A stretch of 40,737 bases of DNA, taken from assembly GCA_016290765.1 (NCBI GenBank), contig JAEEVE010000003.1, positions 1 through 40,737 on the forward strand. The letters run 5' to 3'. This document shows positions 32,712 through 40,737 of this stretch, in pieces. A program made the translations under genes and the position numbers. Position 1 is the stretch's first letter; each line of letters begins with the position of its first letter. The notes under the pieces were generated by a model, which made no database searches, was not told where the DNA came from, and saw nothing but the letters and a program-made list of their open reading frames with translations. This DNA is from Muribaculaceae bacterium (GTDB lineage Bacteria; Bacteroidota; Bacteroidia; Bacteroidales; Muribaculaceae).

Positions 32712-32733
32712 CTATCCCCATATATGGGGATAG
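32712..32733. promoter_or_regulatory. Perfect 22-bp palindrome in the feoAB/32781 divergent intergenic region
   Basis: CTATCCCCATATATGGGGATAG equals its own reverse complement. Confidence 0.5.
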
Positions 32734-32780: not shown

Positions 32781-34683
32781 TTGACAAATATGAAACGACA
32801 AATTTTACTCACCGCATTTGTTTTATGTCTGGCCTTTGTCAGTGCACAGGCGCAAAAGTACTGGGCCAATATGCAACAAGTTTGTATCGATGCTGCATTG
32901 CCAACGATGCAATATCCTGTGGCTCAAGATTGCCGCATGTATGCCGAAGATTTTGAGATCGAGGCTGGTGGCTCATGCCAAGTGACAATCTATTTGGACA
33001 ACACCCTCCCAATTTGGTTCCTACAGCTGCAAATGATCCTGCCCGATGGCTTGTCGGTGACCAGTGCCAAACTATCACAAGAATTCATTTCCCTCACCAA
33101 TTATGTTGTGGATGGTGAGACACACAACGACAATGCTATGACCTATAGCTGGGAAGGCGAGCGGCCTCATGAACTCAGACTGCTCACCACCAACATGGTG
33201 CAACATTACCCCATTCCCATCGGAACGCATCAGAGTGTGTTTGTCATTACCCTACATGCCAACGAGTCATTGACAACCGGTACCTATGAGGTAGCGACAA
33301 CGCTATTTCGCTTTGTCGCCGCCACGACTGATGAAGGTGAGGGCTTTTGTAGGAGTCAACACTTCTTGCCAAGTCACCGTGATTCCTCCCAAGGCGACCG
33401 ATGTCCAGGTGACCCCAGCGAGCATTGAGCTGTTTCCAGGGCAAGCAACGACACTCACTGCCACTGTTCAGCCAAGTTATGTGACCCAGACAGTAATTTG
33501 GCAGTCACAGGATCAAAACATTGCCACTGTCGATGAGCAAGGTTGTGTCACTGCCCATGGTGTGGGGCAAACAACCATTACTGCCACCACCACCGAGGCG
33601 GCGCAACTATCCGCTACGTGTCAGGTCACGGTCAACCCGATCTTGGCGAGCAGTGTGAGTCTCAGCCAGACGGCAGCCATTGTCAAGCCTGGTGCCACTT
33701 TCAGTCTTACCCCGACCATCTTGCCCGAGAATGCCACGTGCAGTGTTGTTGATTGGATCTCGTCCGACCCGCAGGTGGCAACCGTTGACGCCCAGGGAAC
33801 AGTGGTGGTGCATCAACGCGGCACTGCCATTGTCACAGCCACAACCACCGATGGCACCCAGCTGCGCTCAAGTTGCCTCGTTGCCGCTGACTGTCAACCC
33901 GACATCAATGGCGATGGGGAATATGATGTGGTAGATGTGAACTGTTGCATTAATGCCATGCTTGGCAAGACCTCTGACCCAGAAGTCATTGAAAAATCTG
34001 ATGTTAATGGTGACGGTATAGCCGACATCTCGGATGTCAACTTGATTATCAATGCTTTGCTCTACGGAGTGCGCTCAATGACTCATGAGTTTACCGTCAA
34101 TGGAGTGGCATTTACAATGGTTCCTGTAGAAGGTAATGAGGATGTCCCTGCATTTGCCATCGCACAAACCGAGACCACCGAAGCACTATACAAAGCCGTC
34201 ATGGGCAACTATTCGGCATCACACTTGTTTGATGTCGAAGATAATTGGCCAGCAACGTCCCTGGATTTGTATCGATCCCAAGAGTTTGTCAACAAGCTAA
34301 ATCAGCTCACAGGACTAGCTTTCCGTATTCCCCGCTATAGTGAATGGTATCATGCTGCTATAGGAGGCAATCGCAGCTTAGGTTTCACCTATGCCGGAAG
34401 CAACGATATCGAGGTCGTGGCGTGGTTTAACGAAAACAGCGACGATCATCCGCATCCTGTTGCTACCAAGGCACCCAACGAGTTGGGTCTCTACGACATG
34501 AGCGGAAATGTGGCGGAGTGGGGTGCCGAACTTGTACCAGGACCACACAACATGGGTGAGGTTCCATTTAACTATGGAGGCGGCTACAACTCCGACCGAA
34601 TAGGATGCCGAGTAACCTCTTTCGGTTTCTATGACTACCACGACTACGAATGCCGAGGCTTGGGACTCCGCCTTGCCATGTAA
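32781..34683 (+). pseudogene. Secreted multidomain protein (cohesin-like, two Big_2, dockerin, FGE-sulfatase-like) interrupted by an apparent 1-nt frameshift near 33345
   Basis: ORFs 32781-33428 and 33313-34683 join as ...TTDEGEGF|VGVNTSCQVTVIPPKATDVQVTPASIEL... if one T of TTTT (33345-33348) is removed. Dockerin loops DINGDGEYDVVD and DVNGDGIADISD; FGE-like YKAVMGNYS...FRIPRYSEWYHAAIGGN...LGLYDMSGNVAEW. Confidence 0.75.
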
Positions 34684-40021: not shown

Positions 40022-40737
40022 TTATTGCGGAATAGTTTCTTTCTCAGGCGCAGTGTCGTGGCCTTGATGACCCGTGGGTACGTCATAGTCCTTGCCCAGC
40101 ATGATGTTGATGACCGTGTTCACATCAGAAATGTCAACCACGCCGTCATTGTTGATGTCGCTGGCTCTGTTGTAAAGCGTCTCATCAAGGTCCATCGCCA
40201 GACGGATGCCGATTGGCTCGTTATTGATGCCGAAGACCGTTTTGATGGGTTCGACTCCGGCACGGTTGTATACGTCGCAGTGCCTCTCATCGCCGTCATT
40301 GTAGCACGAGCCACCGCGAATCACACGCTTCGTGCCCGTCTCCGGGCCGGTGGGGTTGACCTGCGCCTCCTCGGTGTAATCGGCGAACCAGTCCTGGCAC
40401 CACTCCCACACGTTGCCGCTCATGTCGTAGATGCCCAGCTCGTTGGGCTTGAGCTTTCCGACGGGTCGGGGATCATTTTCTGAAGAAGGTCCCCAAGGGG
40501 AGTAGGTGCACCATCCCACCTCGTATGCGACATTGCTTCCGCTGTAGTGATATCCTTGCGACTTGTTCCCGCCTCGTGCGGCATATTCCCACTCGGCCTC
40601 GGTGGGTAGGCGGAACTGCAGCCCGGTGACATTGTTGAGCCTCTGTATGAAGGAATTCACGTGGTTCAGGTTGATGCCATAGATGGGGCAATTCATCTGT
40701 TCGTACCCCGGCTCGGTGCCGCCCATCACGGCGTGGA
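40022..40737 (-). CDS. FGE-sulfatase-like domain protein with C-terminal dockerin-type repeat, 5' end off window
   Basis: ...HAVMGGTEPGYEQMNCPIYGINLNHVNSFIQRLNNVTGLQFRLPTEAEWEYAARGGNKSQGYHYSGSN...LGIYDMSGNVWEWCQDWF...VIRGGSCYNDGDERHCDVYNR...GIRLAM...SDINNDGVVDISDVNTVINIMLGK. Confidence 0.9.
   Translation of the reverse strand, partial: HAVMGGTEPGYEQMNCPIYGINLNHVNSFIQRLNNVTGLQFRLPTEAEWEYAARGGNKSQGYHYSGSNVAYEVGWCTYSPWGPSSENDPRPVGKLKPNELGIYDMSGNVWEWCQDWFADYTEEAQVNPTGPETGTKRVIRGGSCYNDGDERHCDVYNRAGVEPIKTVFGINNEPIGIRLAMDLDETLYNRASDINNDGVVDISDVNTVINIMLGKDYDVPTGHQGHDTAPEKETIPQ

Follow-up and report, generated by a model that had tools for sequence, protein, structure and literature searches.

A single gene at positions 32790-34683 (+) of the window, the whole 40,737-nucleotide stretch of Muribaculaceae DNA analyzed here, encodes a signal peptide, a cohesin-like module, two Big_2 domains, a two-loop dockerin, and an FGE-fold domain. 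The locus raises the question of whether such a chain belongs to a cohesin-dockerin system, and if so, what kind of system and in what capacity.

Domain organization of the window gene

The initial annotation named a signal peptide, a beta-rich module, two Big_2 domains, a dockerin, and an FGE-like domain, and all of these parts were recovered in place. The coding sequence is divided between two ORFs. Translation of the first (32781-33428) gives the signal peptide and the beta-rich module, and Pfam identifies two Big_2 domains, the dockerin, and the FGE-sulfatase domain in the second (33313-34683). The best start codon is the ATG at 32790, and a TTG at 32781 is also in frame. The Sec signal peptide, MKRQILLTAFVLCLAFVSAQAQ (32790-32855, +), was read from the translation alone. 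The divergent cohesin-like module (32904-33341, +) was assigned from the family profile, direct phmmer matches, its cohesin-related relatives, and weak structural support. Its last strand lies past the frameshift, at about 33355-33381 (+) in the frame 2 translation. The single frameshift between the two ORFs (33341-33355, +) falls within this last strand. Frame 1 is good up to FRFVAATTDEGEG (~33341) and frame 2 picks up with TSCQVTVIP (~33355), a stretch that aligns with the final strand of related modules. The frameshift was located from the translations and from the unbroken layout of a congeneric adaptor (genome G007, L130:3870-5273), and it may be an assembly error, the genome being represented by one metagenome assembly of 313 contigs that is 83.5% complete. 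The G007 protein is an intact signal peptide-cohesin-dockerin-FGE chain that has the window layout without the Big_2 domains; therefore, the layout of the window gene is not an artifact.

Big_2 domain 1 (33397-33606, +) was assigned with PF02368, and Big_2 domain 2 (33673-33882, +) with the second PF02368 stretch and a local profile; PF02368 scores 92.6 bits over the two stretches. The dockerin (33901-34062, +) has the loops DINGDGEYDVVD and DVNGDGIADISD. The FGE domain is the last part of the chain, and searches with TIGR04183 and PF18962 gave no T9SS C-terminal sorting domain. The gene stands alone. Its neighbors, feoB and an EF-G-like gene, are both on the opposite strand, and no anchor gene adjoins it. 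A perfect 22-base palindrome, CTATCCCCATATATGGGGATAG, lies at 32712-32733 between the divergent feoB and adaptor genes and is a possible operator; no second copy was found at ≤4 mismatches within the 0.49 Mb of genome searched. An ORF with an FGE-fold domain and a single-loop dockerin (40025-40735, -) is cut by the contig end and is a second, separate gene of the same system.

The C-terminal FGE/C-type-lectin-fold domain (34081-34680, +) was defined with PF03781, AF2, Foldseek, and a cysteine alignment. PF03781 scores 55.8 bits, and most of the AF2 model has pLDDT >90. The nearest solved relative, both by sequence and as the top Foldseek match, is TvpA (PDB 2y3c), a variable protein with the C-type-lectin fold. 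Comparison with human and bacterial FGE places a serine at the first catalytic cysteine position, and the second cysteine is kept (human C336 and C341). FGE chemistry is therefore not expected. Enzyme activity of this kind is unsupported, and a role as a formylglycine-generating enzyme was rejected on the missing cysteine. The domain most resembles a ligand binder of the C-type-lectin fold. Retroelement-driven diversification is known for TvpA, whereas no reverse transcriptase was found in the source genome, and thus TvpA-like diversification is not supported. A diversity-generating retroelement acting on the FGE-fold tails was rejected because the 83.5% complete genome has no RVT_1 match. Named Bacteroidota records with a similar FGE domain come from Paludibacteraceae, Bacteroidia, and Prevotella. 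A locus in a yak rumen Prevotella bin (L003:2-4286) encodes proteins with two or three tandem FGE-fold domains and single-loop dockerins, and these proteins are related to the dockerin-FGE family, in expanded form.

Cohesin homology of the N-terminal module

The initial annotation called the N-terminal module cohesin-like, with a caution that proved apt. Searched directly by sequence, the module had no match in Pfam, NCBIfam, or the PDB. Pfam Cohesin (PF00963) matched nothing across the genome at E 1, its cut-off being a detection threshold and not a biological definition. The link to cohesins is made by relatives of the module. Direct phmmer searches were run against the ORFs of loci chosen for their Pfam Cohesin matches, several of them above cut-off. 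Among congeners, the module matched L018 at 6.5e-10, and the L018 cohesin is above the Pfam cut-off; further matches were to L017 (1e-6) and to L014 (twice) and L010 (7e-6 to 2e-4). As a drift check, the 16 aligned modules were compared singly with Pfam Cohesin, which matched 10 of them (best 2.8e-8). The 16-row family profile searched against the PDB retrieved mostly cohesins (5n5p, 8.3e-5; 5nrk, 0.0019; 2xdh, 0.0056; 5nrm, 0.0069), followed by the NagJ cohesin-like modules. The same profile scores 108.1 bits (E 5.2e-31) on the window module, a value that is not independent because this module is row 1 of the 16.

Single-sequence AF2 prediction gave a nearly all-beta model of poor confidence (pLDDT 52), and its top five Foldseek matches are cohesins (2jh2, 4uyq, 1qzn) with TM only ~0.3. 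The alignment reveals an insertion around NDNAMTYSWEGERPHE compared to most relatives. In the tree, the window cohesin is on a very long branch of 2.54 changes per site; its best identity is 33%, its nearest rows are all adaptor cohesins, and it has no supported place. The homology comparisons make it very likely that the N-terminal module is a divergent cohesin homolog.

Dockerins, cohesins, and anchor-adaptor gene pairs in the genus

The dockerin called in the initial annotation is real. It scores 38.8 and 34.8 bits against a PF00404 cut-off of 22.9, and both DxNxDGxxDxxD loops are complete. AF2 places helices at both repeats with pLDDT 42-71, there being almost no aligned relatives for that part. 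The first loop (VVDVNCC) deviates from the dockerin class of the genome. The window dockerin is closest to the dockerins of its own genome (similarity 0.524). Similarity is 0.587 inside the source genome versus 0.35-0.51 to other genomes, from which the top-scoring matches were picked, a choice that favors similarity. Dockerins are generally more alike inside one genome than between most genomes; G001, G009, and G010 share one dockerin class, and the G007 dockerins are heterogeneous. A scaffoldin dockerin class set apart from the enzyme dockerins was rejected, as the scaffoldin dockerins of G009 and G010 match the other dockerins of their genomes.

The genome-wide search proposed in the initial annotation returned 103 dockerin matches (PF00404) and five or six cohesin-like modules (family profile). 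Dockerin matches in 18 congeners number from 29 to at least 145 per genome. The window gene is not unique, being one of ~103 dockerin-bearing ORFs, 13 of which also have an FGE-fold domain. The dockerin lies at the end of 77 of these ORFs, internally in 18, and near the start in 8. Pfam analysis of 97 dockerin ORFs identified LRR_5 (20), FGE-sulfatase (13), Peptidase_C10 with a Spi inhibitor (9), M6 (4), S8 (2), alpha-amylase (4), CotH (3), Omp28 (4), GH53 (1), and nucleases (2). No cellulase family is among the matches listed for these 97 ORFs, and the remaining families each have one member, with E-values of at best 1.1e-14 and 5.1e-25. The dockerin cargo consists of C10, M6, and S8 peptidases, BspA-like repeats, amylases, and FGE-fold domains. 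The L119, L121, and L134 scaffoldins carry no cellulose-binding module. A classical cellulosome was rejected on the cargo of the dockerin ORFs and the missing CBMs. Single-loop dockerins also occur in L058, L065, L044, L061, L037, and L078, and L044 has two dockerin loops split by a TGNQGHDTAP linker. Four source-genome loci (L024, L040, L049, and L055) contain clusters of internal-dockerin ORFs with the common tail FEFNDVTKAYKYYRFEVIEIGG...FQLAELTLVGY.

The cohesin-like modules of the source genome include those in L074 and L084, which encode LRR_5-dockerin-cohesin proteins, and in L067, a cohesin-dockerin-FGE protein cut by a contig end. The family profile detected between 1 and 16 such modules per genome in all 15 congeners searched. 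The proteins encoded by L119:1747-4500 and L120:2571-5333 each consist of a signal peptide, six cohesins, and a dockerin. Multi-cohesin scaffoldins were found in congeners and none in the source genome at its 83.5% completeness in 313 contigs. Thirteen same-strand anchor-adaptor gene pairs, mostly <100 bases apart, were identified in eight congeneric species (G002, G003, G004, G005, G007, G009, G010, and G017). The anchor is a dockerin-cohesin protein with a glycine-rich T9SS-like sorting tail, and the adaptor is a secreted protein with one or more cohesins followed by a dockerin; one of the 13 downstream genes (L136) has no recognized dockerin. By layout, the window gene is an adaptor gene, and it is unpaired. 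In a tree built without the window module row, the anchor cohesins are set apart from the adaptor cohesins (3 label changes versus 22 when shuffled), the placement of the window module being taken from a later tree. Behind the cohesin, a T9SS type A domain was detected above cut-off in L093 (TIGR04183, 27.9 bits); the corresponding match in L119:4529-6271 is below cut-off. The source-genome anchors L074 and L084 are not tail-positive in NCBIfam, and their surface location therefore rests on resemblance. The T9SS pore SprA is present in the source genome, split across two contigs.

Dockerins are present in 14 of the 15 genomes of the order that have this cohesin type compared to 56 of 149 overall (Fisher p 3.8e-6), and p is 2.4e-5 when the two profile-source genomes are left out; these values are only a guide because species are not independent. 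Several dockerin-rich genomes (e.g. G112, G134, and G137) are without this cohesin type. The best dockerin matches in G112, G113, G134, and G137 mostly begin at profile position 8-11, and these are perhaps another dockerin class with another partner. G021, in family f4, encodes 8- and 5-cohesin proteins with Por_Secre_tail, and its dockerins are on C10, M14, and S9 peptidases, gingipain-type C-terminal domains, and peptidylarginine deiminase. In G066, a genome from another family of the order with at least 40 dockerins, an ORF of 1728 residues (C85:22765-27762) contains about ten cohesin-like modules. An alignment-based scan of viral contigs found no conserved stretch.

Proposed role and relation to known systems

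The modules, their order and family links, the anchor-adaptor pair that recurs in congeners, and the species-matched dockerin classes are properties of the sequences themselves, and from them we infer the binding events, surface location, and ligand binding of the window protein. The balance tips toward a cohesin-dockerin surface system of non-cellulosomal type in which the gene encodes a secreted adaptor, or mini-scaffoldin. The protein would be exported by Sec and would then cross the outer membrane without a T9SS tail. Its dockerin would plug into the cohesin of another protein, most likely a surface dockerin-cohesin protein with a T9SS-like tail, and its N-terminal cohesin would capture one of the ~100 proteins of the same cell that carry a dockerin. 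The Big_2 domains would be spacers, and the FGE-fold domain would be a ligand-binding head and not a formylglycine-generating enzyme. A surface complex outside a classical cellulosome, as envisaged in the initial annotation, fits the dockerin and cohesin context across the genus.

Given how far the window cohesin has diverged, decay, or loss of its putative binding, has to be weighed against the adaptor role. The gene could be a decaying paralog, a frameshifted and drifting relic of the adaptor family that has no present function. The frameshift is inside the cohesin, the branch is very long with a maximum identity of 33%, the first dockerin loop is atypical, and the FGE domain has lost the usual EWC motif along with a catalytic cysteine. 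However, the downstream frame is open for 462 codons, the upstream signal peptide is intact, both calcium loops are present, and the FGE domain is modeled confidently; a lone frameshift may also be an assembly error in a 313-contig metagenome assembly. We consider decay unlikely, though it is the more plausible of the alternatives. Less probable again is a beta module that derives from a cohesin but, having lost dockerin binding, serves as a structural or carbohydrate-binding spacer, which would leave the dockerin alone to dock the FGE head to an anchor. Divergence beyond Pfam detection and the insertion around NDNAMTYSWEGERPHE are consistent with a spacer, as is the absence of a cohesin from many other dockerin-FGE proteins of the source genome, but the related adaptors L130, L018, L089, L097, and L101 bear recognizable cohesins at the same position.

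Self-assembly, an idea carried over from the initial annotation, would take the form of an intramolecular clasp, with the cohesin bound to the dockerin on its own chain, or of a self-polymer, with binding to an identical chain. Both partners are on one chain, and this is also true of L018, L089, L130, L119, and L120. Self-binding would, however, consume the docking site, and dockerins of the same class are found on ~100 other proteins. Ruminococcus cellulosomes use chains that carry a cohesin and a dockerin as ordinary adaptors (PMC7480376, PMC8865330). The adaptor role is likelier than homo-polymerization because ~100 other dockerins and other cohesins are available as partners, and we regard a clasp or self-polymer as very improbable.

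The evidence is evenly poised on a broader proposal in which the adaptor encoded in the window is one part. A Bacteroidales-like genus would build a T9SS-anchored surface cohesin-dockerin assembly with >100 dockerin proteins, dominated by peptidases, BspA-type repeats, and lectin-fold heads in place of cellulases. Docking would be by divergent cohesins that Pfam largely misses, and the type would recur in several further families of the order, with G021 and G066 among the examples. In a genome with ~100 dockerins, the curated cohesin model detects no cohesin, whereas the relative-derived profile recovers five or six and also reveals scaffoldins and anchors in the genus. Were binding confirmed, the Bacteroidota would possess protein-targeting cellulosome-like assemblies coupled to type IX secretion, and matching cohesin-dockerin pairs could be deduced from sequence.

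Searches of an open-access library, which omits most subscription papers, gave no description of such a system in Bacteroidota, and its novelty is provisional. Dockerins and cohesins of rumen Bacteroidetes are noted in PMC4035507 and PMC6071333, and dockerins with some cohesins are listed for rumen or landfill Bacteroidetes (PMC6071333, PMC4035507, PMC5541161). According to PMC4035507, no cellulosome producer was known in Bacteroidaceae. Cohesins in the camel rumen were confined to Firmicutes_A bins (PMC9177762), and there are rumen bins with dockerins yet without cohesins (PMC9763041). Such survey reports of dockerins but no cohesins in rumen bacteria contrast with the source genome. The noncellulosomal modules of Peer et al. 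2009, as cited in PMC4035507 and PMC8542988, are similar in that cohesins and dockerins occur apart from cellulose degradation. As represented in those citations, the modules are listed, whereas no genus-wide Bacteroidota system with scaffoldins and anchors is described. The window protein and its putative partners can also be compared with two cellulosome-type systems.

Ruminococcus is Gram-positive. R. flavefaciens, R. champanellensis, and ERACg_42 resemble the source genus in having many dockerins, single-cohesin adaptors with a dockerin (Cohesin_I-dockerin_I), and LRR_5-dockerin proteins, whereas the cargo of their cellulosomes is cellulases and hemicellulases (PMC8865330, PMC7480376). The closest published system is the cellulosome-like complex of Candidatus Stygibacter (Cloacimonadota) (PMC8542988). 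It differs in having a single scaffoldin of 3,755 residues that bears CBM2/CBM3, together with few dockerins, and the portions of that paper dealing with the complex mention neither adaptors with one cohesin nor paired anchor and adaptor genes nor FGE heads. The likeness, as given in the same portions, is that the Stygibacter dockerins are on peptidases (S8, C25) and glycosidases with polypeptide degradation as the inferred function, and that a large cohesin scaffoldin carries a C-terminal T9SS-type domain.
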